Assembly (NCBI RefSeq): GCF_017876675.1
Contig: NZ_JAGIOI010000001.1
Coordinates: forward strand, 4,340,001 to 4,404,000
Length of the DNA: 64,000 nucleotides
From: Arthrobacter stackebrandtii
GTDB lineage: Bacteria; Actinomycetota; Actinomycetes; Actinomycetales; Micrococcaceae
Reading direction: 5' to 3'
In this document: positions 2,291-20,465 of the stretch, piece by piece
Numbering within the stretch: position 1 is the stretch's first letter
How the letters are laid out: each line of letters opens with the position of its first letter
Position numbers and translations under genes: made by a program
Notes under the pieces: model-generated
Told to the model about the DNA's origin: nothing
Seen by the model: the letters and a program-made list of their open reading frames with translations, nothing else
The model's database searches: none

Positions 2291-2319
2291 TTGAAAGTGT
2301 GAGCTGGACAACATAAAGT
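2291..2319 (+). promoter_or_regulatory. sigma70-type promoter of the acyl-CoA synthetase gene
   Basis: TTGAAA at 2291-2296 and TAAAGT at 2314-2319 are separated by 17 bases. The -10 hexamer overlaps the left arm of the palindrome at 2316-2335, so a protein bound there would block RNA polymerase. Called by eye; the start site was not measured. Confidence 0.5.
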
Positions 2320-2335
2320 TACTGTCTAGTAACTT
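2316..2335. promoter_or_regulatory. perfect palindromic operator upstream of the acyl-CoA synthetase gene
   Basis: Perfect inverted repeat, arms AAGTTACT / AGTAACTT around a 4-base spacer GTCT. The core TTACTGnnTAGTAAC recurs at 20451-20465 upstream of an acyl-CoA dehydrogenase gene. Size and symmetry fit a TetR-family repressor, and acyl-CoA-responsive TetR proteins commonly control such genes. No candidate repressor gene lies in the window, so the regulator is unidentified. Confidence 0.6.
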
Positions 2336-2413
2336 AGACTTTCCCCCTGATCGGCCCGTTGACGGATAGAGTGAAGCAACACGGTCGCAAGCCCGCTTAC
2401 CAAAGGAGCTATT

Positions 2414-4228
2414 GTGCAAGAGATGTCCGTTCCGGCCAAGGTTGTCAGTCCCAGCACCATGAACACCACTGACCTCGTGCTTCGGCATGCACAGTCTGGC
2501 GCAAATCCACCGCTGTTTGCCCGTCGGAACGCCGACAACGTCTGGGTTGACGTCTCTGCCAAGGAGTTCCATGCCGACGTGTGCGCCATTGCCAAGGGCC
2601 TGATCGCCTCCGGCATCAAGGTGGGCGACCGTGTGGGCATCATGGCCCGTACGCGCTACGAATGGGCACTGGTGGACTTTGCCCTCTGGTTTGCCGGGGC
2701 CGTCTCGGTGCCGATCTATGAAACCTCCTCGCCCTCGCAGGTGGCGTGGAACCTGGGCGACTCGGCCGCCGTTGCCGTCATTGTGGAAAACGGCACCCAC
2801 GAGAACATCGTCAGGGCGGCGGCCCACAATGAAAACCTGGAACACCTGGCCAACGTGTGGCAGATGGAAGGCGACGGCCTGGACGCCCTCCGCGAGGCCG
2901 GCACCGGAGTCAGCGATGAAACCCTCGAGGCGGCCCGCACGGCCAACGGCCTGGACGATGTTGCCACGATCATCTATACCTCCGGCACCACCGGGCGCCC
3001 CAAGGGCTGCATGCTCACGCACTACAACTTCGTGGAACTGAGCGAAAACGCGCTGTCAGTGCTGGGCGCCACCGTCGTTCCGCCCGGATCACAGACCGTC
3101 ATGTTTCTGCCCCTGGCGCATGTGTTCGCCCGCTACATCTCCGTGCTGGCCGTGGCGGCCGGCGCCAAGGTGGGCCACACCCCGGACATCAAGCACCTGC
3201 TGGAGGACCTGCAGAGCTTCAAGCCCACATTCATCCTGGCCGTGCCGCGCGTCTTTGAAAAGGTCTACAACTCGGCCGCCCTCAAGGCGGAGGGCGACGG
3301 CAAGGGCAAGATCTTCGCCGCGGCTGCCAGGACCGCCGTGGAATACTCACGCGCCACCCAGAACGGAAACGCCGGCTTCGCCCTAAAAGCCAAGCACTTC
3401 GTGTTTGACAAGCTGGTCTACACCAAGCTCCGCGCAGCCATGGGCGGCCAGGTCCGCCACGCCGTCTCCGGCGGCGGACCCCTGGGCGAGAGGCTGGGCC
3501 ACTTCTTCCAGGGCATCGGCCTGCAGATCCTGGAAGGCTACGGCCTCACCGAAACCACGGCCCCCATCACGGTCAACCGGCCCGAACGCATCAAGATCGG
3601 CACCGTGGGCACCCCGCTTCCGGGCAACTCAGTCAAGATCGCGGACGACGGCGAGATTCTCGCCAAGGGCGTTTGCGTCATGAAGGGGTACTTCGGCCGT
3701 GACGACCTCACAGCCGACAACTTTGTCGACGGCTGGTTCCGCACGGGAGACATCGGCGAACTCGATGACCAGGGCTTCCTGAAGATCACCGGGCGGAAGA
3801 AGGAGATCATTGTCACCGCCGGAGGCAAGAACGTGGTCCCGGCGCTGCTCGAAGACCAGATCCGCGCCGACGCCATCGTCTCCCAGTGCCTGGTCATCGG
3901 CGATTCGCGCCCGTTCATCGCAGCCATCGTCACCCTTGACGAGGAAGCGCTGCCCCAGTGGGGCAAGACGCGCGGCCTCGCGGACGGCATCACCGTGGCG
4001 GAAGCCGCCGCGCACCCCACCGTCATTGCCGCCGTCCAGGCTGCCGTGACCAAGGCAAACGCCTCGGTGTCCTCTGCCGAGGCCATCAAGCAGTTCCGGA
4101 TCGTCGACACCGACTTCACCGAGACCTCCGGCCACCTGACCCCCTCCATGAAGGTCAAGCGCGCCCAGGTCCTGAAGGACTTCGACGCCGTGGTGGAGGA
4201 AATCTACCTGAGCAGGAAGCCCGCCTGA
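2414..4228 (+). CDS. fadD: long-chain fatty acid--CoA ligase (FadD15-like AMP-forming synthetase)
   Basis: 604 residues, full length for bacterial long-chain acyl-CoA synthetases. The AMP-binding signature is IIYTSGTTGRPKGC; later come GYGLTETTAP, GWFRTGDIG (adenylate/ribose contact) and the hinge ITGRKKEIIVTAGGKNV. It activates fatty acids to acyl-CoA for beta-oxidation or lipid synthesis, at the membrane face of the cytoplasm. GTG at 2414 is chosen because AAAGGAG lies 5 bases upstream; the in-frame ATG at 2423 is too far from it. It stands alone on its strand, under the palindromic operator at 2316-2335. The exact chain-length preference is unknown. Confidence 0.92.
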   Translation: MQEMSVPAKVVSPSTMNTTDLVLRHAQSGANPPLFARRNADNVWVDVSAKEFHADVCAIAKGLIASGIKVGDRVGIMARTRYEWALVDFALWFAGAVSVPIYETSSPSQVAWNLGDSAAVAVIVENGTHENIVRAAAHNENLEHLANVWQMEGDGLDALREAGTGVSDETLEAARTANGLDDVATIIYTSGTTGRPKGCMLTHYNFVELSENALSVLGATVVPPGSQTVMFLPLAHVFARYISVLAVAAGAKVGHTPDIKHLLEDLQSFKPTFILAVPRVFEKVYNSAALKAEGDGKGKIFAAAARTAVEYSRATQNGNAGFALKAKHFVFDKLVYTKLRAAMGGQVRHAVSGGGPLGERLGHFFQGIGLQILEGYGLTETTAPITVNRPERIKIGTVGTPLPGNSVKIADDGEILAKGVCVMKGYFGRDDLTADNFVDGWFRTGDIGELDDQGFLKITGRKKEIIVTAGGKNVVPALLEDQIRADAIVSQCLVIGDSRPFIAAIVTLDEEALPQWGKTRGLADGITVAEAAAHPTVIAAVQAAVTKANASVSSAEAIKQFRIVDTDFTETSGHLTPSMKVKRAQVLKDFDAVVEEIYLSRKPA

Positions 4229-4241
4229 CACGGGGCAGCAA

Positions 4242-4283
4242 AAGGGCGGCTGCCGCGGAATGAATTCCGCGGCAGCCGCCCTT
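4242..4283 (+). terminator. intrinsic terminator after fadD
   Basis: Perfect 20-bp inverted repeat (4242-4261 and 4264-4283) with a 2-base loop, very GC-rich, starting 13 bases past the fadD stop and followed by a T-biased stretch. An A-run before it means it could also act on leftward transcription from pyc. Confidence 0.8.
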
Positions 4284-4349
4284 CTTGTTGTGCAGTATCC
4301 GGCAGCTCCGGTTCCCGGCGCCGCCGAATGGGCCCGCACGCCCGAGGGA

Positions 4350-4385
4350 CCCCGAACACAGGCGCGCCAGCGGCTGTGTTCGGGG
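4350..4385 (-). terminator. hairpin downstream of pyc
   Basis: Arms CCCCGAACACAG (4350-4361) and CTGTGTTCGGGG (4374-4385), 12 bp perfect with a 12-base loop, 12 bases beyond the pyc stop. There is no clear T-run, so it is either a weak intrinsic terminator or a 3'-end stabilising hairpin that works together with the hairpin at 4242-4283. Confidence 0.55.
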
Positions 4386-4397
4386 AGGGCCAGGGGA

Positions 4398-7300
4398 CTA
4401 GGAGATGACCACCAACAGGTCCCCGCCCTGCACCTGGGCAACCCCTGAGACGGCGAGGCGCCCCACGGTGCCGCCCACCGGCGTCGTGATGGAAGCTTCC
4501 ATCTTCATGGCCTCGATGGTGGCGATCGTGTCGCCTGCCTCGACGACGTCACCCACTGCGACCTTGACCGAGACGGCCCCGGCGAACGGGGCGGGGACCT
4601 GTCCGGGCACGGTCTCGTCGGCCTTCTCGGCGGCCTTGACGGTGCTTTCAATGCTGCGGTCGCGGACAGTGACGGGGCGGCTCTGGCCGTTGAGCTTGGC
4701 CACGACGGTGCGCATGCCCTTCTCGTCGGGCTCGGAGATGGTCTCCAGCTCGGCGATCAGGCGCACGCCCTTGCCCAGCGGCATGACATGCTCCACGCCG
4801 CGGCGCAGGCCGAACAGGTAGTCGCGCGTGTCCAGGACGGAGACGTCACCGTAGGTCTTGCGGACCTCCTCGAAGTCCTTCGTGGGACCGGCGAACAGCA
4901 GTCGGTTCAGCGCGGCGCGGCGGGTGGCGCTGTCGCCTGCCAGCTGTGCGCTGTCCTCGTCCGTGAGCGTGCCCATGCGTTCGACGACGGTTCGCCCTTG
5001 CAGTGCCTTGGTGCGGAATGGCTCGGGCCAGCCGCCGGGCGGGGTGCCCAGCTCGCCGCCGAGGAAGCCCACCACGGAATCGGGGATGTCGTAGTTCTGC
5101 GGGTTCTCCTCGAAGTCGGCCGGGTTGGCCTTGATGCCCACGAGGTGCAGGGCGAGGTCGCCCACCACCTTGGACGACGGCGTGACCTTGACCAGGTGCC
5201 CCAGGATCCGGTCTGCGGCGGTGTACATGTCCTCGATTTCCTCGAAGCGCTCCCCCAGTCCCAGGGCGATGGCCTGCTGGCGCAGGTTGGAGAGCTGGCC
5301 ACCCGGGATCTCGTGCTGGTACACGCGGCCAGTGGGCGAGGCCAGGCCCGACTCGAACGGAGCGTACAGGCGGCGCACGGCCTCCCAGTACGGCTCAAGC
5401 GAGCTGATGGCGGCCAGGTCGATGCCGGTGTCGCGCTCGGTGTGCGCCAGGGCAGCGACCAGGGCGGAGGCGGAGGGCTGGCTGGTGGTGCCGGCCAAGG
5501 CCGCGGAGGCGACGTCAACGGCGTCGACCCCTGCATTGATGGCCGCCATGAGGGTGGCGAGCTGGCCGCCAGCCGTGTCATGGGTGTGCAGGTGCACGGG
5601 CAGCTCGAAGCGCTCGCGCAGCGCCGTGACCAGCTTGGCCGCGGCGGCCGGGCGGAGCACGCCGGCCATGTCCTTGATGGCCAGGATGTGCGCCCCGGCG
5701 TCGACGATTCGCTGGGCCAGTGCCAGGTAGTAGTCGAGCGTGTAGATGTCCTCAGCCGGGTCCAGCAGGTCCCCGGTGTAGCAGAGGGCGACCTCGGCGA
5801 CGGCGGTGCCGGTGGCACGGACGGCGCGAATGGCCGGCTCCATCTGGTCCACGTCGTTGAGCGCGTCAAAGATGCGGAAGATGTCGATTCCGCTCGCGGC
5901 GGCCTCCGCAACAAACGCGTCGGTGACCTCGGCCGGGTACGGCGTGTAGCCCACCGTGTTGCGTCCGCGCAGCAGCATCTGCAGGCAGGTGTTGGGCAGG
6001 GCCTCGCGCAGTTGCGCCAGCCGCTGCCACGGGTCCTCGCCCAGGAAGCGCAGGGCCACGTCGTAGGTGGCCCCGCCCCAGGCCTCGACCGAGAGCAGCT
6101 GCGGGGTCAGCACGGACACGGCCGGACCGGCGGCAAGCAGGTCGCGGGTGCGCACGCGGGTGGCCAGCAGCGACTGGTGGGCGTCGCGGAAGGTGGTGTC
6201 GGTGACGGCGACGGCGGTCTGGGCGCGAAGGGCTGCAGCGAAGCCTTCCGGGCCCAGCTCGGCCAGCAGCTGGCGCGAACCGGCCGGGGCAGCCGCCAGG
6301 TCAACCTCGGGCAGCTTGCGTGCCGGATCCTCCAGCACCGTCGGTTCGCCGTGGGGCTTGTTGACGGTGGCTTCGGCGAGCCACGTCAGCAGCTTGGTGC
6401 CGCGGTCGGAGGACACGTGGGAGTTCAGCAGTTCCGGGCGCTCGTCGATGAAGGACGTGGCGACGTCGCCGGCGTTGAAGGCCGGGTCGGCCAGCACGGC
6501 CTGCAGGAAGGAGATGTTGGTGGAGACGCCGCGGATGCGGAACTCCGCCAGGGCGCGGCGGGCGCGGGAGACGGCCGTTGGGTAGTCGCGGCCGCGGCAG
6601 GTGAGCTTGACCAGCATGGAGTCAAAGTGCGGGCTGATCTCGGCACCTGCGTAGATGGTGCCGCCGTCGAGCCGTACACCGGCACCGCCGGCGGAGCGGT
6701 AGGTGGTGATCTTGCCGACGTCGGGGCGGAAGCCGTTGGCGGGGTCCTCCGTGGTGATGCGGCACTGCAGGGCGGCACCCTTGACGTGGACGCTGTCCTG
6801 GGTGAGCCCGAGGTCCGCCAGGGTCTCCCCGGCGGCGATGCGCAACTGGGCCTGGACGAGGTCGACGTCGGTGATTTCTTCCGTGACGGTGTGTTCGACC
6901 TGGATGCGCGGGTTCATCTCAATGAAGACGTGCTGCCCGGCGCGCTCCCCCACGGTGTCGACGAGGAACTCAACCGTGCCGGCGTTGACGTAGCCCATGG
7001 CCTTCGCGAACTTCACGGCATCGGCATGCAGTGCCTTGCGGATGTTCTCATCCAGGTTGGGCGCAGGGGCGATCTCCACGACTTTCTGGTGGCGGCGCTG
7101 CAGGGAGCAGTCGCGCTCAAACAGGTGGATGACGTTGCCCTCGTTGTCGGCCAGGATCTGGACCTCGATGTGGCGCGGGCGCAGCACGGCCTGTTCCAGG
7201 AACATGGTGGCGTCGCCGAAGGCGGCGTCGGCTTCACGCATGGCGGCCCTGAGTGCCTCTTCAAGTTCCTCTGCCTTTTCCACGCGCCGCATGCCTCGCC

Positions 7301-7793
7301 CGCCGCCGCCGGCCACGGCCTTGGCGAAGATGGGGTAGCCGATCTCGGCCGCGGCACCCAGGAGGTAGTCGAGGTCGTCGCTGGGCTCACTGGACTTGAG
7401 CACCGGAATGCCGGCCTTGCGGGCTGCCTCGAGGGCGTGCACCTTGTTGCCGGTCAGTTCCAGCACTTCGGCGGGCGGGCCCACAAAGGTGATGCCGGCG
7501 TCGCGGGCCGCCCCGGCAAGTTCCGGGTTCTCCGACAGGAAGCCGTAGCCCGGGTAGATGGCGTCGGCACCGGCCTCTTTGGCAACGCGGATGACCTCGG
7601 CCACGTCAAGGTAGGCGCGGACCGGATGCCCCTCGTCACCGATCAGGTATGCCTCGTCAGCCTTCTGGCGGTGGATGGAGGTGCGGTCCTCGTAGGGGTA
7701 CACGGCCACCGTCTTGGCACCGAGCTCGTAGCTGGCACGGAAGGCACGGATGGCGATTTCGCCGCGGTTGGCAACCAGAATTTTCGAAAACAT
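4398..7793 (-). CDS. pyc: pyruvate carboxylase
   Basis: 1131 residues, the full single-chain enzyme. The N-terminal biotin carboxylase (about 1-450) has an ATP-grasp with the glycine-rich loop AGGGGRGMRRV. The carboxyltransferase (about 520-820) has TFRDAHQSLLATRVRT and the metal-site HLHTHDT. The C-terminal biotinyl domain has EAMKMEAS with the biotinylated Lys at about 1097. It makes oxaloacetate from pyruvate, bicarbonate and ATP, the anaplerotic reaction feeding the TCA cycle and gluconeogenesis. It lies downstream of gcvP but 326 bases away with a hairpin between, so it is probably transcribed separately. No truncation or frameshift is seen. Confidence 0.97.
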   Translation of the reverse strand: MFSKILVANRGEIAIRAFRASYELGAKTVAVYPYEDRTSIHRQKADEAYLIGDEGHPVRAYLDVAEVIRVAKEAGADAIYPGYGFLSENPELAGAARDAGITFVGPPAEVLELTGNKVHALEAARKAGIPVLKSSEPSDDLDYLLGAAAEIGYPIFAKAVAGGGGRGMRRVEKAEELEEALRAAMREADAAFGDATMFLEQAVLRPRHIEVQILADNEGNVIHLFERDCSLQRRHQKVVEIAPAPNLDENIRKALHADAVKFAKAMGYVNAGTVEFLVDTVGERAGQHVFIEMNPRIQVEHTVTEEITDVDLVQAQLRIAAGETLADLGLTQDSVHVKGAALQCRITTEDPANGFRPDVGKITTYRSAGGAGVRLDGGTIYAGAEISPHFDSMLVKLTCRGRDYPTAVSRARRALAEFRIRGVSTNISFLQAVLADPAFNAGDVATSFIDERPELLNSHVSSDRGTKLLTWLAEATVNKPHGEPTVLEDPARKLPEVDLAAAPAGSRQLLAELGPEGFAAALRAQTAVAVTDTTFRDAHQSLLATRVRTRDLLAAGPAVSVLTPQLLSVEAWGGATYDVALRFLGEDPWQRLAQLREALPNTCLQMLLRGRNTVGYTPYPAEVTDAFVAEAAASGIDIFRIFDALNDVDQMEPAIRAVRATGTAVAEVALCYTGDLLDPAEDIYTLDYYLALAQRIVDAGAHILAIKDMAGVLRPAAAAKLVTALRERFELPVHLHTHDTAGGQLATLMAAINAGVDAVDVASAALAGTTSQPSASALVAALAHTERDTGIDLAAISSLEPYWEAVRRLYAPFESGLASPTGRVYQHEIPGGQLSNLRQQAIALGLGERFEEIEDMYTAADRILGHLVKVTPSSKVVGDLALHLVGIKANPADFEENPQNYDIPDSVVGFLGGELGTPPGGWPEPFRTKALQGRTVVERMGTLTDEDSAQLAGDSATRRAALNRLLFAGPTKDFEEVRKTYGDVSVLDTRDYLFGLRRGVEHVMPLGKGVRLIAELETISEPDEKGMRTVVAKLNGQSRPVTVRDRSIESTVKAAEKADETVPGQVPAPFAGAVSVKVAVGDVVEAGDTIATIEAMKMEASITTPVGGTVGRLAVSGVAQVQGGDLLVVIS

Positions 7794-8119
7794 CTCACTC
7801 CTGTGTGAACGATTGGTTGTGTTCCGCGCGCCGGCTGGCGGCGCTGCTTCACACGGTCAAGGCATGGACCGGGCTTTCAGGGCACCCGGGCCGGCCTTCT
7901 TGGCAAATGCCTGCCCCGGATGGTGCGGCGCAAGCCGTTCCACTGCCGGAACGGCTTCCGTCCGCCCCTCCCGGAGCCCGGATTTGTGCCAGTGTCGCCC
8001 TTGGAGGCGGCGGCGGCCAAATCCTGTGTTTCGCATCACGCGGGCCGGCGTAACAAAACGCCTGCCCGCGCTGGACGCCCCGGCCGGCCGCATGGCTGCC
8101 GGCCGGGGCGTTTGGCACG
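7794..8119 (-). other. non-coding gap between gcvP and pyc, with two hairpins
   Basis: No convincing gene in 326 bases. It holds the gcvP terminator (8076-8110) and, in the presumed pyc leader, an inverted repeat AAGCCGTTCC / GGAACGGCTT at 7932-7957 with a 6-base loop and no T-run. I did not find a match to a riboswitch consensus. Confidence 0.5.
8076..8110 (-). terminator. terminator of gcvP
   Basis: Arms CGCCCCGGCCGGC (8076-8088) and GCCGGCCGGGGCG (8098-8110) form a perfect 13-bp stem with a 9-base loop, 10 bases after the gcvP stop. Confidence 0.65.
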
Positions 8120-11044
<2,925 letters not shown>

Positions 11045-11134
11045 GTCGCGAACGTTCCACAGCTATTGTATGTGTCAGCGCTAACGGCAGCGGCACATGA
11101 TTGAATCGGCAACGCAAAGGGTAATGGTTTCTCC

Positions 11135-11971
11135 GTGCAAGTAGTGAGCATCAGCAGCCTCAAGGGGGGCGTGGGCAAGACGTCTGTCACGCTCGGATTG
11201 GCCTCGGCAGCTTTGGCTGCGGGAATCCCCACCCTGGTGATTGACCTTGATCCGCACGCCGACGCCACCACCGGGCTGGCCGTCTCGCCCCGCGACGAGT
11301 TCGACATCGGCCAGATGATCAAGGCCTCCCGCAAGGCAGACCTCGGCGCCAACATCGTTCCCAGCGGCTGGCTTGCGGCGCATGAGGCCGACGGCGGGAC
11401 CCCGCCGACGCTCGACGTCGCCATGGGTTCGGCCTACAGCGGGATTTATGACCGGCCCGACCTTGGCAGGCGCGACCTGAAACGGCTGGCCACGATCCTC
11501 TCCAACGCCGACCGCGACGGCTCCGCGCCGTACCAGTTGGTGCTGATCGACTGCCCGCCGTCGCTGAACGGCCTGACCCGGATGGCGTGGACGGCCAGCA
11601 GCCGCGTGCTGCTCGTGGCCGAGCCGGGCCTGTTCTCCGTGGCCGGAACACAGCGCACCCTGCGCGCCATTGAGCTGTTCCGCACGGAGTTCGCCCCGAG
11701 CCTTGTCCCGGCCGGCATCGTCGCCAACCGGGTCCGCCCCGGCTCCAGCGAACACGCCTACCGGCTGAATGAGATGAAGACCATGTTTGGCGAGCTGTTG
11801 CTCTCCCCCACCATCCCCGAGCAGGCCAACTGGCAGCAGATCCAGGGTGCCGCGCACCCGGTTCACCAGTGGCCCGGAGACTCCGCCAAGAACGCCTCGG
11901 CTTTGTTTGACCGGCTGCTGGATTCAGTGTTGAACCAGAACGCCACCCGCAGCCGCCTCTACCGCGGCTGA
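11135..11971 (+). CDS. orphan ParA/MinD-type ATPase
   Basis: 278 residues. Residues 10-17 are the deviant Walker A KGGVGKTS, followed by VIDLDPHADATTGLA (ParA switch/Walker A') and VLIDCPPSLNGLTRMAW (Walker B). Such proteins dimerise on ATP and position DNA or protein complexes. No ParB or partner gene is adjacent, and a second ParA lies at 31861. It is divergent from gcvP and convergent with a MerR gene across a hairpin. GTG at 11135 gives the typical short lead before the P-loop, though its Shine-Dalgarno is weak. The cargo is unknown. Confidence 0.85.
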   Translation: MQVVSISSLKGGVGKTSVTLGLASAALAAGIPTLVIDLDPHADATTGLAVSPRDEFDIGQMIKASRKADLGANIVPSGWLAAHEADGGTPPTLDVAMGSAYSGIYDRPDLGRRDLKRLATILSNADRDGSAPYQLVLIDCPPSLNGLTRMAWTASSRVLLVAEPGLFSVAGTQRTLRAIELFRTEFAPSLVPAGIVANRVRPGSSEHAYRLNEMKTMFGELLLSPTIPEQANWQQIQGAAHPVHQWPGDSAKNASALFDRLLDSVLNQNATRSRLYRG

Positions 11972-12013
11972 GCCGACACAGGCCGTGCTGCGCGGCTTTC
12001 ACGCAAAAATGAA

Positions 12014-12062
12014 AACGATCCCGTGCTCGGCGCCCGTTCAGGGTGCCAAACACGGGATCGTT
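12014..12062 (-). terminator. hairpin between the ParA and MerR genes (convergent)
   Basis: Arms AACGATCCCGTG (12014-12025) and CACGGGATCGTT (12051-12062). Read on the minus strand, the stem is followed by TTTTCATTTTTG, so it should end the MerR transcript; it also lies 43 bases after the ParA stop. Confidence 0.7.
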
Positions 12063-12079
12063 CCCGCATCTTGCATGCG

Positions 12080-12673
12080 TCAGGAGATCTTGCGGGCCTC
12101 GCGGCGCTTGCTCAGTTCGTCGTCGGGAAACGCCTGCACGGCGGCGTGCTCGCTGGGAAGGGCCGCAAGGCTGCCTTCCACCTCGCGCCAGACGCGGCCG
12201 ACGGCAATGCCGAACACGCCCTGGCCGCCCTGGACCAGGTCGATGACCTCATCGGCGGACGTGCACTCGTAGACGGACGCACCGTCGCTCATCAGCGTGA
12301 TCTGGGCCAGGTCTTCCACACCGCGTTCGCGCAGGTGTTCGACGGCGGAGCGGATCTGCTGAAGGGACACCCCGGTGTCCAGAAGCCGCTTGACAACCTT
12401 CAGGACCAGGATGTCGCGGAAACCGTAGAGGCGTTGTGAGCCGGAGCCGGCTGCACCGCGTACGGCGGGCTCCACGAGTCCGGTGCGGGCCCAGTAGTCC
12501 AGCTGGCGGTAGGTGATGCCCGCAGCCTTGCAGGCGGTGGGGCCGCGGTAGCCGGCATCCTCGTCCAGGACGGGAAGGTCCTCGGTGAACAGCAGGCCCT
12601 GCGAGCCGGCACTGATGGCAGCGCTGGGGGCTGCGGCTGAGCCCAGCCCTCCGGTGTCACTCTTGGCACTCAC
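12080..12673 (-). CDS. MerR-family transcriptional regulator (Rv1830-like)
   Basis: 197 residues from the GTG at 12673, chosen because AGGAGG sits 6 bases upstream; longer in-frame starts lack a ribosome site. An N-terminal ~45-residue low-complexity lead (SAAAPSAAISAG) is followed by a MerR helix-turn-helix core: GYRGPTACKAAGITYRQLDYWARTGLVEP, then RLYGFRDILVLKVVKRLLDTGVSLQQIRSAVEHL. The C-terminal part has no ligand domain I recognise. The position next to the DUF151 gene and second MerR parallels Rv1828-Rv1830 of mycobacteria. Candidate operator-like repeats lie in its promoter region. Targets are unknown here. Confidence 0.85.
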   Translation of the reverse strand: MSAKSDTGGLGSAAAPSAAISAGSQGLLFTEDLPVLDEDAGYRGPTACKAAGITYRQLDYWARTGLVEPAVRGAAGSGSQRLYGFRDILVLKVVKRLLDTGVSLQQIRSAVEHLRERGVEDLAQITLMSDGASVYECTSADEVIDLVQGGQGVFGIAVGRVWREVEGSLAALPSEHAAVQAFPDDELSKRREARKIS

Positions 12674-12819
12674 GTAGATCCTCCTGTTCACAGTCCCCCC
12701 GAACGGTTGCCTGCCGGGGAGCAGCCGGGGCAGTTCACACAATGGGGAGGGCTGTTGGGGCCCTAACCTCAAGTGTGCCCTCGCCGGCCAAGGCATGCAA
12801 TGGGAAACTCAATACTTTG

Positions 12820-12848
12820 ACGTTAGATCGGTGCAGGGACAAGGTCAA
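12820..12848 (-). promoter_or_regulatory. promoter of the Rv1830-like MerR gene
   Basis: On the minus strand TTGACC (12848-12843) is followed after 17 bases by TAACGT (12825-12820). The motif CGTTAGA-TCG around the -10 recurs with one change at 12901-12912 (CGTTAGAGATCG), so the two may be binding sites for a MerR protein. Confidence 0.4.
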
Positions 12849-12939
12849 AGACGCACGCCCAACAATTTTGGCGTGTCGAAACTTTCATCCTCAGGTTCAA
12901 CGTTAGAGATCGATGGAAAATGCGGTCAACGGCGGGCTT

Positions 12940-13446
12940 TTACTTCTCAAAGTCCTCGGGTTCAACGTCATTGAGGAATTCCCTGAATTGACGAACCTCA
13001 CGTTCCTTGGCTTCGTCGTCGACTTCCCCTGATGCCGTTTCCCCGCCGTCGTGGCCTACGATGACCACTCCGGCTTCATCCACCATTTCCTCTGCGGCCC
13101 AGATGGGGCACTGGGCGCGCTGCGCAATGGCAATTGCATCCGAAGCGCGCGAGCCCACGGTGGTTCCATTGTCGAAAACGATTTCGGCGAAGAACACCGC
13201 GTCCTCGACCTTGGTCAGGTTGACGCGCACGATCGAGTGCCCCAGCGCCTTGACCACCCCGCACAGGAGGTCGTGGGTCAGCGGGCGCGGCGGAACCACG
13301 CCCTGCTCTGCAAGGGCGATGGCCGTGGCCTCCGCGGCACCGATCCAAATGGGAATGTGCCGCTCCCCATGGACTTCACGCAGCAGCACCAGCGGCTGGT
13401 TCGTTGGCATTTCAATGCGCACGCCAACAATCTTGACCTCAATCAT
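12940..13446 (-). CDS. DUF151 / bifunctional nuclease-family protein
   Basis: 168 residues with the DUF151 core: VKIVGVRIEMPTNQPLVLLREVHGERHIPIWIGAAEATAIALAEQGVVPPRPLTHDLL. It includes the conserved IxIGxxEAxAI loop and the SDAIAIAQR segment. Family members have been described as single-strand DNA/RNA nucleases, but the physiological role in actinobacteria is unclear. The C-terminal ~35 residues are acidic. Its ATG overlaps the stop of the upstream MerR gene by 4 bases, so they are co-translated. It is the Rv1829 equivalent by order. Confidence 0.88.
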   Translation of the reverse strand: MIEVKIVGVRIEMPTNQPLVLLREVHGERHIPIWIGAAEATAIALAEQGVVPPRPLTHDLLCGVVKALGHSIVRVNLTKVEDAVFFAEIVFDNGTTVGSRASDAIAIAQRAQCPIWAAEEMVDEAGVVIVGHDGGETASGEVDDEAKEREVRQFREFLNDVEPEDFEK

Positions 13447-14210
13447 GGCGCTTCCATCTGCTCAATCCGGGCGTGGACCAGGGCGCTGTGCAGGCCCAGG
13501 CACAGCTCGGCAATTTCACGTGCGGCCTCGGCCGCCCGCATGGCGGACGTGCCGTCACGCTTGGAGGCCAGCGGGCCCACGGCACGCTCCACGAGCCCAA
13601 ACTCCCGGTCCGCAGCGGCCTGGAAGGGACGCAGGTGCCGGGGTTCCAGGCCGTGGACCGCCAGGGCCGTGCACGCCTGGGCCACTTTCAGTGCGTGGTC
13701 GTCAAAGCTGCCTTCGTGCAGTTCGAGCAATCCGTAGCTGAGCATGGTTTCATACAGTTCCGCACTTGCCCCGGACTCGCTCCGCAACTCGGCGGGCGTG
13801 AGGCGGCGGGTGCGGCTCTTGAGTTCCCTGGCCAGTTCCCCCGACACCATGCGCGGGGCGATGGAAACACCGGCGGGAAGGTTGGCCGGAGTGTGGCCCC
13901 TGTCGATCGATTCGAGGTACTCGCCAATGACCTTCAACGGCAGGTAGTGGTCGCGTTGGAGGGCCAGCACGAACCTGAGGCGCTCGACGTCGGAATCCCG
14001 GAACTGGCGGTATCCGGCCGGAGTGCGCTGGGGCGCGATCAGGCCCTTTTCTTCGTAAAAGCGGATCTTGGATGCCGTCACGGAAGGAAAGTCCGTGCAC
14101 AGCAGCGCAAGGACCTCCCCAATGTTCAGGACGGCGGCAGCGCCGGGCCGCCGGCTGGCGGGGTTAACATCCACCAGCCGGCGTCCGGCGCCGGAATTGA
14201 TTGCTGCCAC
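13443..14210 (-). CDS. ftsR: MerR-family regulator FtsR (Rv1828-like)
   Basis: 255 residues. The winged helix-turn-helix is LNIGEVLALLCTDFPSVTASKIRFYEEKGLIAPQRTPAGYRQFRDSDVERLRFVLALQRDHYLPLKVI; the long C-terminal helical domain resembles Rv1828. In Corynebacterium the orthologue FtsR activates ftsZ, linking this gene to cell division; that role here is inference from order and similarity. The start is GTG with AAGGG about 5 bases upstream, 7 bases after the FHA-gene stop. The first ~28 residues are a variable lead. Confidence 0.85.
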   Translation of the reverse strand: MAAINSGAGRRLVDVNPASRRPGAAAVLNIGEVLALLCTDFPSVTASKIRFYEEKGLIAPQRTPAGYRQFRDSDVERLRFVLALQRDHYLPLKVIGEYLESIDRGHTPANLPAGVSIAPRMVSGELARELKSRTRRLTPAELRSESGASAELYETMLSYGLLELHEGSFDDHALKVAQACTALAVHGLEPRHLRPFQAAADREFGLVERAVGPLASKRDGTSAMRAAEAAREIAELCLGLHSALVHARIEQMEAP

Positions 14211-14217
14211 AGTGCCC

Positions 14218-14700
14218 TTAGGCGTCCGCTGCCGGGCCGTTGGCGCCGTAGTAATAGGTCAGCCGGAACTTTCCGATCTGAACCTCGTTTCCTGTCTGCA
14301 AACGCACCGAATCCACCCGGTCCCCATTGACATACGTGCCGTTCAGGCTGCCGGCATCGATGACTTCAAAGCCGCCGTCGTACTTGATGAAGTTCACGTG
14401 GCGGCGCGAAACCGTCACGTCATCCAGGAAGATGTCGGCATCGGGATGCCGGCCTGCGGTGGTTACTTCACTGTCCAGCAGGAAGCGTGCGCCTGCATTG
14501 GGGCCCTGGTGGGCGATCAGCAGTGCCGAACCTGCGGGAAGCGAGTTCACCGCGTTTTGCTCATCCGGTGCCAGCACCGGAATTGACGTTGGCCCGGCCT
14601 GGACGGGAGGGAGCTGAATCGAGGTGGTATCAGATGCACCGGGCTGATCCTGGGAGCTCGCCCGACCCTGCACCTCGGCGCCGTTACCCGTGTCAACCAT
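14218..14700 (-). CDS. garA: FHA-domain regulator of 2-oxoglutarate metabolism (GarA/OdhI type)
   Basis: 160 residues. The N-terminal tail carries SDTTSIQLPPV: Thr25-Thr26 correspond to the paired phosphothreonines of GarA/OdhI that PknB/PknG-type kinases modify. The FHA domain (about 65-150) shows AGRHPDADI, SRRHVNF and SLNGTYVNGDRV with the Arg, Ser, His and Asn that bind phosphothreonine. Unphosphorylated, the family inhibits 2-oxoglutarate dehydrogenase and adjusts glutamate enzymes. A strong AAGGAGGAG site precedes the ATG. It lies between gcvH and ftsR, the same order as Rv1826-Rv1828. Confidence 0.92.
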   Translation of the reverse strand: MVDTGNGAEVQGRASSQDQPGASDTTSIQLPPVQAGPTSIPVLAPDEQNAVNSLPAGSALLIAHQGPNAGARFLLDSEVTTAGRHPDADIFLDDVTVSRRHVNFIKYDGGFEVIDAGSLNGTYVNGDRVDSVRLQTGNEVQIGKFRLTYYYGANGPAADA

Positions 14701-14836
14701 TGGTACTCCTCCTTGCTGAGTTGTTGCCTGGGTGCGCTTGCGCCCAGTTCAGAAAAATCTACGGGCTTCCGCTGGGAAAGCCCTGACCGGGAGCTGCAAC
14801 AAAGTGATGTGCACTCCGGGCAAATCCTCGATCCTA

Positions 14837-15223
14837 CTAGCCTACCTTTTCCTGGTAGTCCCCGGCGCTGAGCAGGGAACCATGGCTGGCGGCATCGCTG
14901 AGCGTGATTTCCACGAGCCAGCCGGCACCGTAAGGATCGGAGTTGATGAGCGAAGGATCTGTGTCCAGTGCCTCGTTGCGGGCCGTGACGGTTCCGGTCA
15001 GCGGCGCATAGATGTCGCTGACGCTCTTGGTGGACTCGACTTCGCCAACAACGGTGTCGGCAGTGACATCCGTGCCAACCTCGGGCATCTGGACGTACAC
15101 AACGTCGCCCAGGGCGTCCTGGGCAAAGTCGGTGATGCCGACGCGGACAACGCCGTCGGCGGTGGGGGCCGCAACCCACTCATGCTCTGCGGTGTAGGAC
15201 AGATCTGCGGGAATGTTGCTCAT
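14837..15223 (-). CDS. gcvH: glycine cleavage system H protein
   Basis: 128 residues from the ATG at 15223. AAAGG lies 8 bases upstream of this ATG but abuts the alternative GTG at 15232. The lipoyl site is VGEVESTKSVSDIYAPL with Lys66. It shuttles the aminomethyl intermediate between GcvP (8120-11044) and GcvT. It heads the minus-strand block gcvH-garA-ftsR-DUF151-MerR, although 136 bases separate it from garA, which has its own ribosome site. Confidence 0.96.
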   Translation of the reverse strand: MSNIPADLSYTAEHEWVAAPTADGVVRVGITDFAQDALGDVVYVQMPEVGTDVTADTVVGEVESTKSVSDIYAPLTGTVTARNEALDTDPSLINSDPYGAGWLVEITLSDAASHGSLLSAGDYQEKVG

Positions 15224-15446
15224 TGTGCGCACCTTTCGGGATTCATCGCTGCCGCGTGAATGTAACGTGAAGTCTCAAGTCAATCATGGTCCGGGGCCGA
15301 TTGCCCCCACCAACCACAACCAGTCTTTAGTGTATGGGCGATCTTGACAAGTCGCCCCGGATCTCGAAAGAACCTTCTACGGATTTTTCGGCGAAATAGG
15401 GCCCGCCAGGGACCATTCGACCCCCTGACTCTGACATGATTCAACT

Positions 15447-16124
15447 ATGACTGAATCAACATCCCCCGCCCCGGCCGGCAAGGCGACCAAGGCAAAGATG
15501 GCCCCCTGGCTGTTCTGGACCATCTTTGGCGTGGCAGCGGCCGTGTTCGTGGTGCTGGTTTACCTGGTCGCCTCCGTGACAGTGCCGCTTATGTGGGCCA
15601 CCGCCATCCGGGACCAGGTGGCGGGCAAGCTGGGCAATGCCATCCCGATCGGCATGTTCTACGGGTTCGTGTTCACGTTTGCGCCCATCACCATCGCCTG
15701 GCAGGCCCGCCGGCGCAGCCTGAACAAATGGGTGCGCGTGGGGCTGCTGGTCCTGGGCGTCCTCCTGCTGATCCCGAACCTGCTGACCCTGGGCGTCATG
15801 TACGGCTCTTCGGCAACCGCCGCCGACGCCCGCGCCATCTGGGCCACCGGCGCCAACTGGTTCGGCACCTGGAGCCAAATCTTCATGGTGGTGGGTGTGG
15901 TGTGCGCCGTCGCCTCCATCGTCCTGGTCCGCATGTGGCTGAGCCGCGGCAGGGCGCTGCGCGCCGTGAAGGCTGCCGAAAAGCAGGAGCGCGAGGCGGT
16001 GCGGGTGCAGGAGCGCGCCGACAAGGACGCGGCCCGAGCCGCAGAAAAGGCCGCCCGGGCAGCTGCCAAGGACAACCGGAACGGTCCCGGCGCAGGGAAC
16101 CCCGCCGAGCCGCCGCAGGCATAA
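15447..16124 (+). CDS. multi-pass membrane protein, function unknown, upstream of fluoride channel genes
   Basis: 225 residues. Four hydrophobic segments (about 19-45, 64-84, 96-120 and 138-160) are followed by a charged Lys/Arg/Glu/Ala-rich helical tail (about 170-215) that may form a coiled coil in the cytoplasm. Its stop directly precedes the ATG of the first fluoride channel gene, so it belongs to the same transcript. No conserved transporter motif is recognised. The operon position suggests, but does not prove, a link to ion export. Confidence 0.75.
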   Translation: MTESTSPAPAGKATKAKMAPWLFWTIFGVAAAVFVVLVYLVASVTVPLMWATAIRDQVAGKLGNAIPIGMFYGFVFTFAPITIAWQARRRSLNKWVRVGLLVLGVLLLIPNLLTLGVMYGSSATAADARAIWATGANWFGTWSQIFMVVGVVCAVASIVLVRMWLSRGRALRAVKAAEKQEREAVRVQERADKDAARAAEKAARAAAKDNRNGPGAGNPAEPPQA

Positions 16125-16580
16125 ATGCCTTCGCTGCGCAGCCTGGCGCTGGTGGTCGTGGGCGGTACTGCCGGTGTTGCCGCCCGAGAGGCCGTGGCCC
16201 TTGTGCCGGGAATGTTCGACGCCGGTCCCCTGCCCTGGGCGGTCATCGCCGCCAACCTTGCTGGTGCGTTTCTTTTGGGCCTGCTCTATGGTGCGCTGGC
16301 ACACCGGCCCGCCATCCACCATACGACCCGGGCCGGCCAGGCCCTGAGGCTTTTGCTGGGCATTGGTTTTTGCGGAGGCTTCACCACTTACAGCACGTTC
16401 GCCGTGGGGGTTGTCCTGCTGTCCCAGTCTTCGGGCTTCGGCGCGGCGGCGGCGTACGGCCTGGGCACAGTCTTTGCCGGGGCGCTTGCATCCTGGGCCG
16501 GCCTGGCACTCTGGCACGGCCACGCCCATCCGAGCGGCCCCGCCCACGCCGGAAGAAGCACCCCGGGAGGACGGACATGA
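16125..16580 (+). CDS. crcB: fluoride channel subunit CrcB/FluC, copy 1
   Basis: 151 residues with four membrane spans. It has the Fluc signature GFCGGFTTYSTF, in which the Phe and Thr/Ser residues line the fluoride path, and an early Asn in AANLAGAFLLG. Fluc channels passively export fluoride as antiparallel dimers; Gram-positive genomes often encode two subunits that pair. The start abuts the preceding stop, and the TGA overlaps the start of copy 2. The His-rich C-terminal tail (HGHAHPSG) is not part of the channel core. Confidence 0.92.
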   Translation: MPSLRSLALVVVGGTAGVAAREAVALVPGMFDAGPLPWAVIAANLAGAFLLGLLYGALAHRPAIHHTTRAGQALRLLLGIGFCGGFTTYSTFAVGVVLLSQSSGFGAAAAYGLGTVFAGALASWAGLALWHGHAHPSGPAHAGRSTPGGRT

Positions 16581-16954
16581 GCGTCTGGCTGTTTCTGGCT
16601 GCAGCCGTGGCAGGCGGCCTGGGCGCCGCCACCCGCTTCGCCCTGGACAGCTCCATCATCAACAAGTTTCACCTGAACTTTCCGTGGACAACCTTCGCCA
16701 TCAACGTTTCCGGTTCCCTGGCACTCGGGTTTCTGGCGTCGCTGGCTGCCGGGGCGCTGGTTCCGGAAGGCATGCTGCTGCTCCTTGGCACGGGTTTCCT
16801 TGGCGGCTACACCACCTTCAGCACCACAAGCTTCGACACGGTGCGGCTGCTGCAGGAGAAGCGCCACCTGGCGTCCCTGGCCAATGCCATGGGTTCTCTG
16901 GCTGCCGGCGTTGGCGCCGCCGCACTGGGGTATTGGTGCGGTTCACTGTTCTAG
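16577..16954 (+). CDS. crcB: fluoride channel subunit CrcB/FluC, copy 2
   Basis: 125 residues, four spans, signature GFLGGYTTFSTTSFDT. The ATG at 16577 overlaps the stop of copy 1 (ATGA), so the subunits are made together and probably form a heterodimer. The 3' end overlaps the convergent acetyltransferase gene by 12 bases. No fluoride riboswitch was recognised in front of the operon. Confidence 0.92.
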   Translation: MSVWLFLAAAVAGGLGAATRFALDSSIINKFHLNFPWTTFAINVSGSLALGFLASLAAGALVPEGMLLLLGTGFLGGYTTFSTTSFDTVRLLQEKRHLASLANAMGSLAAGVGAAALGYWCGSLF

Positions 16955-17410
16955 CGAGGAGTCCCACACCATGTGCAACAGCGGGTGCGGCAGCCCCCGC
17001 GCATCCGTTTCCGACCGCCCCACAGGGACGAAGCCGCGCTTGGCGTAGAAGACGGCGGCACGGGGGTTTTGCTCATTGACATCCACACTCAGCTGCGGCC
17101 ACTGCCCCTTGGCCCATTCCATGAGCCTGCTGCCAACACCCATGGACCGGGCTTCGTCCGCAACAAACAGCATGGACACGTGGTGGGCAGCCATGCCGAT
17201 GAAGCCAAGAATGCAGCCGTTGCGTTCGGCGACCTGAAGCGTCAGCTGGGGCAGGTACTCGTCCCGGATCAGGGGTTCCAGCGTGTCAATGGCGTCCAGG
17301 GAGAGGAAATGGTGCGTTGCCTCGACGGAGTCGCGCCACACATTGGTGAGCTCCTCGACGTCGTCCGCAATCCGCCCGGGACGCAGCACAACTAGGGAAG
17401 CAGCATTCAT
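16943..17410 (-). CDS. GNAT acetyltransferase, YjaB-like
   Basis: 155 residues from the ATG at 17410. The sequence follows E. coli YjaB closely: WRDSVEATHHFLS near the N-terminus, VSMLFVADEARSMGVGSRLMEWA (acetyl-CoA pyrophosphate loop with V-x-G-x-G/S), then VNEQNPRAAVFYAKRGFVPVGRSETDARGLPHPLLHM. The acceptor substrate of the family is not settled. A longer in-frame start at 17467 adds residues not seen in the family and was rejected. It converges on crcB copy 2. Confidence 0.82.
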   Translation of the reverse strand: MNAASLVVLRPGRIADDVEELTNVWRDSVEATHHFLSLDAIDTLEPLIRDEYLPQLTLQVAERNGCILGFIGMAAHHVSMLFVADEARSMGVGSRLMEWAKGQWPQLSVDVNEQNPRAAVFYAKRGFVPVGRSETDARGLPHPLLHMVWDSSLEQ

Positions 17411-17732
17411 GATTCCCCGATTCTTTGGCAATTTTCCCCACATTACAGCCGCGCTGGGGGGCGCCATGGGGAAGTGGCTGAATCGTTACGACTGTTGCCA
17501 AAACGTTGCAGTGCATGGCAGGCCGCGCGTCGATGCGGCCGCGGAGGCGCATGTTGCTTAAACAAGTCGACCCGCAGGAGCATCGGCGAGATACTCAAGC
17601 GGGTCTAACCGCAGCTGACTCTGAGAAGAGCGCCTTGGCTACCAAGAACACTACCTGCCGCCTCGCCTGCGGACCGCATCCAGGTGTCCGGTTGAGCTGT
17701 ATTTCACACTTCGCACAACAGGCACCGGCATT
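17411..17732. other. 322-base non-coding gap, nothing recognised
   Basis: Lower in GC than its surroundings. Frames here have no family-like protein. I see no tRNA fold, strong hairpin or clear promoter. It holds the upstream region of the acetyltransferase and the 3' side of the lactonase gene. Confidence 0.5.
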
Positions 17733-18563
17733 TCATGTTTCTGCCCCGACGGCAAGGGACACGGCAACGGCACGCCCCGACGCCGCGGCAGCAGGATCCA
17801 TGGCGTCGGGCCACTTCGCTGCCATGACCAGCAGCGTCCCGGCATCCTCCCCGCCCACGGCGCACGAGAAGGCTCCCCGGTCCAGCTCGACGGTGCGCAG
17901 CACTTCGCCGCCGCGGGCCACCAGGACGCACTGCCGGTTGGGGACGTCGGCATACCAAATGCCGCCCTTCCCCGGGCAGATCCCGTCCGGCGCGCTGCCT
18001 GGAACGGCAGCCCAGACGTGCCGGCCGCCCAGGGAACCGTCGGCACGGATGTCGAAAGCCGTGAGGCACCCGGCATTGGATTCCGCCACGAGCAGGGTGG
18101 TGCCGCCGTCCACCACCGCCATCCCGTTCGGGAAGGCGAGGTGCTCGGCAACCACCGTGGCGCTGCCGCCGGGCCGCACCAGGGCGATGATTCCGGAGTC
18201 CCGGGCGGGGCCGGGGTAGTTGTAGCCGATGCAGTTGACATAGGCGTTCTCGCCGTGGGCGGCGACCTCATTCCATGGCGTGCCGGAGAGCTGGTTGAGC
18301 GAGGCAACGTGGGCGAAGTCCCCAGTGGGTGTCAGGGTTAGCAGTTCGCCGGCAGACCCGGAAACTGTCAGAAGTTCGCCGTCGGGAAGCCAGTCAAAGG
18401 TGATGGGAAAGGTGGGCACGGAAAACTGTTGGTGTTCGGTGCCGTCCGGATCCACCGCGTGGATGCTGCGCCGGGTCCAGTCCGCGAACCAGAACCGGCC
18501 TCCGTGCCAGCGTGCCGACTCCCCCAGCCCGATGCCTTCCGCGATGATCCGGCGGTTTTCCAT
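17733..18563 (-). CDS. SMP-30/gluconolactonase/LRE-family sugar lactonase
   Basis: 276 residues from the ATG at 18563, with AGGAG 4 bases upstream. The beta-propeller family marks are visible: EGIGLGESARWHGGRFWFADWTRRSIHAVD at the start (metal Glu), WNEVAAHGENAYVNCIGYN mid-protein, FPNGMAVVDGGTTLLVAES, and PDGICPGKGGIWYADV (metal Asp). Family members hydrolyse aldonolactones or other lactones with a divalent metal in the cytoplasm. No sugar dehydrogenase is adjacent, so the substrate is open. Confidence 0.85.
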   Translation of the reverse strand: MENRRIIAEGIGLGESARWHGGRFWFADWTRRSIHAVDPDGTEHQQFSVPTFPITFDWLPDGELLTVSGSAGELLTLTPTGDFAHVASLNQLSGTPWNEVAAHGENAYVNCIGYNYPGPARDSGIIALVRPGGSATVVAEHLAFPNGMAVVDGGTTLLVAESNAGCLTAFDIRADGSLGGRHVWAAVPGSAPDGICPGKGGIWYADVPNRQCVLVARGGEVLRTVELDRGAFSCAVGGEDAGTLLVMAAKWPDAMDPAAAASGRAVAVSLAVGAET

Positions 18564-18718
18564 TGTTCTCCTGCACCAAGCGTTGGAAGTGGAACAGGGC
18601 CAGTTTAGGCTTCTGCCGAACGGTGCGAATGGGTCCGCTTTAATGACACTCACAGATGCGTCGATAGCCTTCGGGGAACAGGCCAGGTGGCAGGGCCCAC
18701 CCGGGATTTTCTTGCAAA

Positions 18719-19552
18719 ATGAAATGGGGTTCCATCATGGGCGAAGATTCGCGCCGCACCCGTCCGCCGGCTGCTGCCTGGCGGCCGGCACTGGCCGCCA
18801 CCCTGGCATTTGGCATGGCGCTGGCCGGTTGTTCGGCAGCAGGCGAAACGGGGACGGGCGTCGTCCGGTCCGTGGCAGCCCGGGCCGGCGACGGACCGGC
18901 GTCGGACCCGCCCGCTGCCGAGACCACAGCCGCCGCTCCGGAAACGAGCTCCGAGCCGGCGCCGGGACGCTCCCCCGCGCCAACGCCTGGCCCGCCCGCG
19001 GCAACCACGAAACCGGCCGGGGCCACCGCAGTGCCGGTCCCGTCCGCCTGCCTGAAGGGAAAGTGGCAGCTTAAGAATGAAACTTTCGCGGACGTCTTGA
19101 ACAGCATCATGCAGGAAGCCGAGGAGGTGCCCGCCGAGTTCAAGCTGGACGTAGGCGTCACCGGCGAGAGCCTGATGCACTTTGGAGACGACGGATTCTA
19201 CGGCCAGTCCCTGGAGAACTTCTCAATTGTCATGGGCGCCGGTGCCGCACAGGCCACGCACGTCCAGTCCAGCGCCCACAGCGGCAGCTACGAGGCCACA
19301 GACGAACATGTCCAGATCTCGGGGCTCGACGAGCTGTTCTTCGACGCGACGATGAAAGTCGGCGAAGAGGTCACCGTGGTTGCGAGTTCGTCGGAGGCGG
19401 GGGCGGCGGTGTCCGTCTTTGGCTACACCGCACTGGTCCCGGGCATGGACACCAGCGCGGCCGACGGTGTGGCCCGGTACAGCTGCACCGGGGCCGTGTT
19501 GACGTTGGAGTCCGACGGCGGTGGTTCCGCCCAGTTCTCCCGCGTCGGTTGA
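18719..19552 (+). CDS. secreted lipoprotein, function unknown
   Basis: 277 residues. A twin-Arg-containing, hydrophobic leader ends in the lipobox LAGC (Cys38 counting from 18719). A ~65-residue Thr/Ala/Pro linker follows, then a folded domain from about residue 110 (ACLKGKWQLKNETFADVLNSIM). The likely site is the outer face of the cell membrane. The alternative ATG at 18737 gives a better-sized signal peptide (Cys32); neither start has a strong ribosome site. The folded domain is not a family I can name. Confidence 0.72.
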   Translation: MKWGSIMGEDSRRTRPPAAAWRPALAATLAFGMALAGCSAAGETGTGVVRSVAARAGDGPASDPPAAETTAAAPETSSEPAPGRSPAPTPGPPAATTKPAGATAVPVPSACLKGKWQLKNETFADVLNSIMQEAEEVPAEFKLDVGVTGESLMHFGDDGFYGQSLENFSIVMGAGAAQATHVQSSAHSGSYEATDEHVQISGLDELFFDATMKVGEEVTVVASSSEAGAAVSVFGYTALVPGMDTSAADGVARYSCTGAVLTLESDGGGSAQFSRVG

Positions 19553-19579
19553 TCGGGCCTGCCCCGTGTGGCTGCGGGA

Positions 19580-20323
19580 TCAGCCTGCCAGGACCGCAAT
19601 TCCCCTGATGGTGGCTGCCGTGGCGCCGCCGTAGGCCAGCACCACCATGAGGACGCGCGCCTTGTTCGGGGTGATCCACCTGGCCATGACCTCCCCTGCG
19701 ACCAAGCCGGCGACGATGGCGGCACAAACACCGGTCCACTCCCACACGTCCATGACGGGCATTGAGGACGGCGATGCCACATACTTGGCAGCGACTGAGG
19801 CGACACCGATGGTGAGAAAGTAGGGCTGCATGGTTGCCGCAAACGAGCGCTGCTCCCATTTGGAGGCGACGGCGTAGACGCTCATGGCCGGCCCGCCCAC
19901 CCCGGCAGTGGTGTTCATGATGCCGCTGGCGGCGCCGGCTACCAGCATGGGCTTGACCCCGGGCTCCGGCGGGAACGACTTCATCCGCAGCGACACCGTC
20001 AGGCTGGCCAGCACAATGAGGCCCACGCCGACCTGCAGCCAGGCCCCGGGCACATACTTCACAATGACCGCCCCCGGCACGACGCCCACGACCGCAGCAG
20101 ACGCCAGGATGAAGAATTTCTTCCAGTCCACGTACCGAAACACCCGAAACAGCACGAGCAGCGAGGCAGCCACCCCGCAGATGTTGACCAGGACGATGCC
20201 CGTGACGGGCCCCATCAGCAGCACCACAAAGGGTGCGGCCACGAGCGCGAATCCCATGCCCGTCAGGCGCTGCATGGCGGCGCCAACAAAAATGGCGAGC
20301 AGGAGAAGCACAACCACTGCCAC
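19580..20323 (-). CDS. TauE/SafE-family membrane transporter (sulfite/anion exporter family)
   Basis: 247 residues from the GTG at 20323, with GGAGGGG 7 bases upstream; the frame stays open far upstream but over non-coding DNA. About eight hydrophobic spans in two repeats; the family motifs appear as GMGFALVAAPFVVLLMGPVTGIVLVN in the first repeat and AGAASGIMNTTAGVGGPAMSVYA in the second. Members export sulfite, sulfoacetate or related organosulfur anions. No sulfur genes are nearby, so the substrate is unknown. It is convergent with the lipoprotein gene. Confidence 0.85.
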   Translation of the reverse strand: MAVVVLLLLAIFVGAAMQRLTGMGFALVAAPFVVLLMGPVTGIVLVNICGVAASLLVLFRVFRYVDWKKFFILASAAVVGVVPGAVIVKYVPGAWLQVGVGLIVLASLTVSLRMKSFPPEPGVKPMLVAGAASGIMNTTAGVGGPAMSVYAVASKWEQRSFAATMQPYFLTIGVASVAAKYVASPSSMPVMDVWEWTGVCAAIVAGLVAGEVMARWITPNKARVLMVVLAYGGATAATIRGIAVLAG

Positions 20324-20450
20324 TTGTTCGCCCCTCCACTTTGCGTCCCGGTCGATTGTGCCACACACGGCGCCGCGGCTCCTGCCCGGGCCCGGTTTTC
20401 CGTCCCGCGGACCCGTCCGCACCCCTGAAACGGGAGTGATCCACGCAACA

Positions 20451-20465
20451 TTACTGGTTAGTAAC
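20451..20465. promoter_or_regulatory. palindromic operator upstream of the acyl-CoA dehydrogenase gene, second copy of the 2316 site
   Basis: TTACT / AGTAA arms around GGTT, with a following C that also matches the fadD site (TTACTGnnTAGTAAC). It lies 45 bases before the ATG of the dehydrogenase. It is the only other copy I found in the window. Confidence 0.6.

Follow-up and report, generated by a model that had tools for sequence, protein, structure and literature searches.

Fatty acid degradation genes are controlled in Bacillus by the TetR-type FadR and in E. coli by FadR, repressors that are released by long-chain acyl-CoA. FdmR of mycobacteria, the subject of work by Dong and colleagues in 2021, is likewise reported to repress the breakdown of fatty acids in an actinobacterium. 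Work on FasR, in mycobacteria and corynebacteria, has dealt with its control of fatty acid synthesis. In Mycobacterium tuberculosis and M. smegmatis, FasR (Rv3208) activates fas-acpS, binding three inverted repeats in its promoter (PMC7382501, PMC7652896), and acyl-CoAs of at least C16 displace the M. tuberculosis protein from DNA (PMC7382501). Corynebacterium glutamicum FasR represses the acyl-CoA carboxylase genes accBC and accD1 (PMC6460773); in this organism, which is without beta-oxidation (PMC7851686), FasR together with acyl-CoA represses synthesis genes, and FasR of Streptomyces is sco2386 (PMC7324645). Here, we analysed a 64,000-nucleotide stretch of the Arthrobacter stackebrandtii genome (C1:4340001–4404000 of 4,427,938 bases, genome G000; hereafter the window), in which a palindrome stands in front of both the acyl-CoA synthetase gene fadD and a FadE5-like acyl-CoA dehydrogenase gene. 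Sequence comparison points to GTTACTnnnnAGTAAC as an operator that controls a regulon for fatty-acid catabolism and to a TetR-family FasR orthologue as its probable reader, with predicted binding, sign and ligand. FasR itself is already known, and its control of degradation would be the new part. The open-licence literature, which was the scope of our search (RegPrecise and subscription papers lay outside it), gave no account of the motif, of its letters in several spellings, or of FasR controlling degradation, and pairing FasR with Arthrobacter returned only unrelated titles.

A shared palindrome and its fatty-acid targets

TTACTGnnTAGTAAC occurs at 2319–2333 and 20451–20465 of the window, with zero matches in 100 shuffles, and a search for TTACTnnnnAGTAA with at most one mismatch returned the same two sites and no more (shuffle mean 0.04, maximum 1). 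Both searches bear out the earlier note on this DNA, which had reported a shared palindrome present only twice in the whole stretch, except that the first copy starts at 2319 and not at 2318. The perfect 20-base palindrome within which it had placed this copy does not stand: AAGTTACTGTCTAGTAACTT (2316–2335) has perfectly paired arms of 8 bases around a centre, GTCT, that lacks self-complementarity. The palindrome is real, and its role as the operator of a regulon is well supported.

Operator 1, GTTACTGTCTAGTAAC (2318–2333, no strand assigned), has arms reaching 2316–2335 and lies upstream of fadD (2414–4228, + strand), which encodes a 604-amino-acid AMP-binding long-chain acyl-CoA synthetase (Pfam AMP-binding, E 3.7e-74) whose nearest NCBIfam model is FadD11, at 346 bits and under its cut-off of 950. 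A fadD ortholog with an operator matrix match is found in 23/23 genus genomes (scores 19.2–33.9), 78–93 bases before the aligned start and amid flanking sequence much of which diverges. Operator 2, ATTACTGGTTAGTAAC (20450–20465, no strand assigned), is separated by 44 bases from the start codon (ATG, 20510) of a 598-amino-acid acyl-CoA dehydrogenase gene (20510–22306, + strand; Pfam Acyl-CoA_dh_1, _M, _N and Acyl-CoA_dh_C), which we call FadE5-like on the assumption that the label given in the earlier note holds. Eighteen regions of relatives were obtained for comparison, six of them without fadE5; the remaining 12 all contain an operator 2 match (scores 16.5–23.1; 40–42 bases before the start), with a degraded left arm in one, and GGTACGCTG recurs across the rows of the alignment.

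Genome-wide, with gene starts taken as the first in-frame start codon unless stated, TTACTnnnnAGTAA has four exact copies: the two window sites, one at 164566 preceding an acyl-CoA dehydrogenase gene (hereafter the second dehydrogenase), and one at 2069374. With at most one mismatch, GTTACTnnnnAGTAAC falls at eight places, six of them at lipid genes that encode an acyl-CoA dehydrogenase, FadD, the FadE5-like enzyme, the thiolase FadA, an acyl-CoA synthetase and an S33-type hydrolase, the site overlapping possible start codons of the last. The two non-lipid places are 2069373 and the end of an L19-like coding region, and a weaker site at 1253424 precedes a pair of SDR and acyl-CoA dehydrogenase genes by 16 bases. 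The strong site at C1:2069373–2069388 has a universal-stress gene on one side and a gene with weak similarity to BhcC (29.7 bits) on the other, with no evident fatty-acid link.

Similar targets recur in relatives. TTACTGnnnAGTAA is present in 33/61 family-sample genomes (reversed control 14/61; our tally), and the exact 16-mer in 30/297 order-sample genomes, 18/24 in the own family and 12/273 elsewhere (our tally), the control matching 8/297 and none in the own family. Within the order sample, 26 of the 31 exact family sites have a dehydrogenase, fadA, fadD, SDR/AccD or GDSL gene no more than 400 bases downstream, a classification for which SDR, AccD, fadH, 4HBT and GDSL references were taken from relatives, so that G058 (L117) and G023 (L343) match themselves. 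One further site 69 bases before fadB (L110) brings those preceding fatty-acid genes to 27/31, and the other four (L111, L122, L123, L205) stand upstream of an isoprenyl-transferase region, an exporter-like gene, a TetR gene and an unassigned gene. Additional targets are fadH-type and thioesterase genes, with an MHS-type transporter and an alpha/beta hydrolase named by eye. The class sample has the exact site in 32/197 genomes and the control in 2/197, at targets that include FadE5-like genes, thiolases, dehydrogenases, PaaI-type thioesterases and an ETF gene, some sites being without a clear lipid target.

That the two window copies are due to chance or without function can practically be discounted. 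When two mismatches are allowed, the motif shows no excess over its reversed pattern, which occurs at 57 places in the genome versus 32 for the motif; this counts against an operator, and because the reversed control is the commoner at two mismatches, only strong sites were used. Against chance stand the empty shuffles, the conservation of the site in 23/23 fadD and 12/12 fadE5 promoters and the fatty-acid genes at most family sites. Random placement with no enrichment near lipid genes, which the earlier note had named as refuting, is not what the genome scan showed, and the common regulator of fatty-acid genes that it proposed gains support from the genome targets, the footprints in relatives and the family targets.

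A FasR orthologue as candidate regulator

The occurrence of the site across the class pointed to a widely conserved regulator. Candidates were drawn from the 36 TetR_N matches in the genome, with 30 loci scanned for the site. The best candidate is the FasR orthologue P0003 (C1:2761434–2762069; TetR_N E 1.9e-16), which agrees with the earlier guess of a TetR-family protein encoded outside the window. Comparison of P0003 with chain 6o6p, the M. tuberculosis FasR, gives an E of 2.6e-52 and 90/202 identical residues, the next PDB chain outside FasR scoring 2.4e-18, and its best NCBIfam model is FasR (222.2 bits; next 55). Its recognition helix, VSKPVLYQHF, is the same as in 6o6p and identical in 54/58 orthologues examined, and this near-invariance makes a single operator throughout the class plausible. 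Two of the three ligand residues are kept (L98 and L106), and F123 is replaced by Y, under an offset of 20 assumed from the construct length. Next to the gene are a DUF3107 gene (E 8.4e-26) and a ThiF-plus-rhodanese (MoeZ/MoeB-type) gene, the neighbours that we take M. tuberculosis fasR to have.

An independent line of evidence comes from promoters of the type I fatty acid synthase (FAS-I), a gene found in 17/197 class genomes. Using an operator matrix derived from the fad sites and built before the FAS-I loci were fetched, we counted 20 sites scoring at least 7 in the 17 FAS-I promoters (2.1/kb) versus five in 48 kb of upstream sequence (0.10/kb); none of 2000 permuted symmetric matrices reached 20. 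Sites are present in 12/17 promoters (9/9 in g117, 2/2 in g144 and one in g182), and two or three weak sites recur in those of g117. FAS-I promoters of related genomes thus hold weaker versions of the present palindrome, and since this is the promoter to which FasR is published to bind, they argue for a link between the fad operator and FasR. G000 itself gave no FAS-I match, and hence no control of FAS-I by its FasR orthologue was found.

The distribution of FasR is broad, with an orthologue in 60/61 family genomes and in 184/197 class genomes at E 1e-15. It is missing from 8/8 f19 genomes tested, and the site is missing from 22/22 order-sample f19 genomes (our tally). The exact site is present in 32/173 FasR-bearing versus 0/24 FasR-less class genomes (p 0.016, uncorrected for descent), where 11 genomes with only weak FasR matches (1.4e-17 to 3.5e-21) were counted as FasR-less. 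Within the family, the motif occurs in 29/44 genomes with a FasR identity of at least 55% and in 4/17 below (p 0.004, confounded by descent), an association that lends FasR weak support.

Several observations weigh against FasR as the reader. The score of P0003 on the mycobacterial FasR equivalog model, NCBIfam NF053731, does not reach the cut-off of 330, and the protein is therefore not filed as that equivalog. A scan of the fasR locus itself (L025) gave nothing scoring at least 8. FasR is present in nearly all family genomes, yet the strict pattern is in 33/61 only, and f17 genomes carry FasR (5/5 among those listed) yet no exact site. Five of the 17 FAS-I promoters (two g186, three g140) are without a site, and the 12 site-bearing FAS-I genomes are related, nine of them belonging to one genus. 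Finally, the regulator screen was confined to TetR genes of the genome.

With a screen of this scope, another of the 36 TetRs, a MarR or a member of a further family might read the site, which we consider unlikely. In three f15 genomes (L106–L108), a MarR gene (P0004; Pfam MarR, E 2.9e-11) and the FadE5-like gene diverge from a shared intergenic region that holds the site, an arrangement seen only in these related genomes, and the promoter of a LiuR-like TetR gene (L027) bears the neighbouring motif GTTAATGACTACTAAC, with arms GTTA(A/G)T and not GTTACT. The FAS-I promoter result and the invariant helix point instead to FasR.

Quite improbable is a reading of the site by the TetR P0001 (C1:178958–179629) of a conserved ABC-YhgE/Pip-TetR operon, the candidate first favoured. 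Its syntenic homologue in G033, 27% identical, has GTTACTGGCAAGTAAC about 120 bases upstream, and three f6 genomes (L099–L101) have the exact site ahead of ABC/YhgE-type genes, as one f11 genome (L104) does ahead of a YhgE-type gene. The operon has, however, its own, differently centred operator, ACTGACnnGTCAGT, which is exact in 26/32 loci scanned (two of these, L196 and L197, are the FasR gene and not a homologue), and 13/33 motif-bearing family genomes are without a P0001 homologue at E 1e-13 or better; the candidate was dropped on these two grounds. ACTGACnnGTCAGT lies just upstream of the operon at L127:4247–4262 (G000 C1:175747–175762) and at 31 homologous loci, and the operon is probably a self-regulated exporter.

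Contig NZ_JADHDY010000015.1 (L403), titled Sporosarcina beigongshangi, encodes a FasR 97% identical to the present one, which suggests that this record is mislabelled or contaminated.

Promoter layout and the direction of control

Repression of the degradation genes, relieved by long-chain acyl-CoA, is the most likely mode of control. A FasR dimer would bind GTTACTnnnnAGTAAC and block RNA polymerase, and a build-up of long-chain acyl-CoA would fill the ligand tunnel of FasR, causing it to leave the DNA. FadD (activation), the FadE5-like and second dehydrogenases (oxidation), FadA (thiolysis) and helper enzymes would then be made together.

The putative fadD promoter (2291–2319, + strand), read with the −35/−10 consensus, consists of TTGAAA (2291–2296), a 17-base spacer and TAAAGT (2314–2319), whose end runs into operator 1, in line with the earlier description of an overlap with the −10 box. 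It is supported by the genus alignment, and the promoter-layout scan picks up its TTG (locus L003). The scan covered 43 hand-chosen sites with clear targets (SDR/AccD and odd targets excluded), many rows being orthologues and not independent, and placed the operator within the core promoter in 26/43 versus 4/43 on the mirror strand. In 12/43 (ten second-dehydrogenase and two fadD rows), a TTG lies 17–18 bases before a hexamer that the operator's left end supplies, and in 14/43 (twelve fadA and two fadH rows), 17–18 bases separate the TTG from a TAACnT at the operator's right end. An operator inside the core promoters of these genes suits a repressor and agrees with a FadR-like mode of action, the four fadE5-type rows excepted. 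P0003 differs from Bacillus FadR in scoring only 44.8 bits on the NCBIfam model of the latter, against a cut-off of 200, and we take the operator letters of Bacillus and E. coli FadR to differ from the present ones. The likeness to FdmR is one of described role.

The fadE5 locus weighs against a uniform repression of all targets. The four fadE5-type rows gave no overlap of the operator with a recognisable promoter in the layout scan, and operator 2 is followed, at a distance of 31 bases, by a conserved TACGCT (20497–20502, + strand; 7 bases before the ATG), possibly the −10 of a leaderless transcript, a geometry that makes activation at fadE5 possible. The common repressor of the earlier note is thus plausible at fadD, but the fadE5 layout does not show repression. 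Activation of some targets by the same FasR, fadE5 included, in the manner of mycobacterial FAS-I, is unlikely but not negligible. It has a precedent in the published activation of fas-acpS and fits a conserved TAGAGT at fadD (2367–2372, + strand), a possible second −10 within the GATAGAG of the genus alignment, which follows operator 1 after 33 bases. The constant spacing between operator and −10 that an activator might require did not emerge from 48 rows of a 50-entry list, where TANNNT at about 31–34 bases is not enriched, and the layouts at the second dehydrogenase, fadA and fadH suit repression.

Mycobacterial FasR differs from the regulator proposed here in activating a synthesis operon; the targets here are degradation genes, and no FAS-I was found. 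A Micrococcaceae site between an SDR gene and an AccD-type carboxylase gene is reminiscent of the acyl-CoA carboxylase targets of C. glutamicum FasR (operator fasO); C. glutamicum FasR differs in repressing fatty acid synthases too. Its corepression by acyl-CoA, opposite in ligand sign to the mycobacterial protein, tells against relief by acyl-CoA as a general property, and the sign of the ligand may therefore differ between lineages. The Streptomyces sco2386 is presumably a different protein from the present TetR.

Tentatively, and with slightly less than even confidence, we view FasR as an old class-wide acyl-CoA sensor for acyl-CoA turnover (degradation and acyl-CoA carboxylase), with mycobacterial FAS-I activation as a later re-use of the operator and a single ligand that shuts down synthesis in one lineage while inducing degradation in another. 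Should the same sensor and operator govern degradation in the Micrococcaceae, related bacteria would have coupled one acyl-CoA switch to opposite pathways and left its DNA-reading helix unchanged, giving a clean example of regulon rewiring, and soil Arthrobacter relatives would gain a defined, testable fatty-acid regulon. In f37 genomes, which appear to be Streptomyces-like, 12/15 have one exact GTTACTnnnnAGTAAC per genome (L242–L253), between a thioredoxin-like gene and a DUF6230-type membrane protein gene (Pfam run on one). Under a class-wide FasR, the DUF6230-type genes would be a target of unassigned role.

Elements adjoining the operators and sister motifs

Directly preceding both operators are elements that we call CRP-like on an assumed CRP consensus. 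TGTGA-N6-CAACA (2298–2313, + strand) adjoins operator 1 and is kept in most genus alignment rows, and AGTGA-N6-CAACA (20435–20450, + strand) adjoins operator 2, with similar elements in most relatives' rows. Their position beside both operators is a hint of carbon catabolite control.

A neighbouring motif, GTTAAT(nnnn)ACTAAC, is found at L092:1501–1516 (C1:144930), in a divergent promoter between a TetR gene and a carboxylase gene, and at L209:2001–2016 (C1:1210838), before an SDR and dehydrogenase pair. These sites perhaps belong to a sister regulon.

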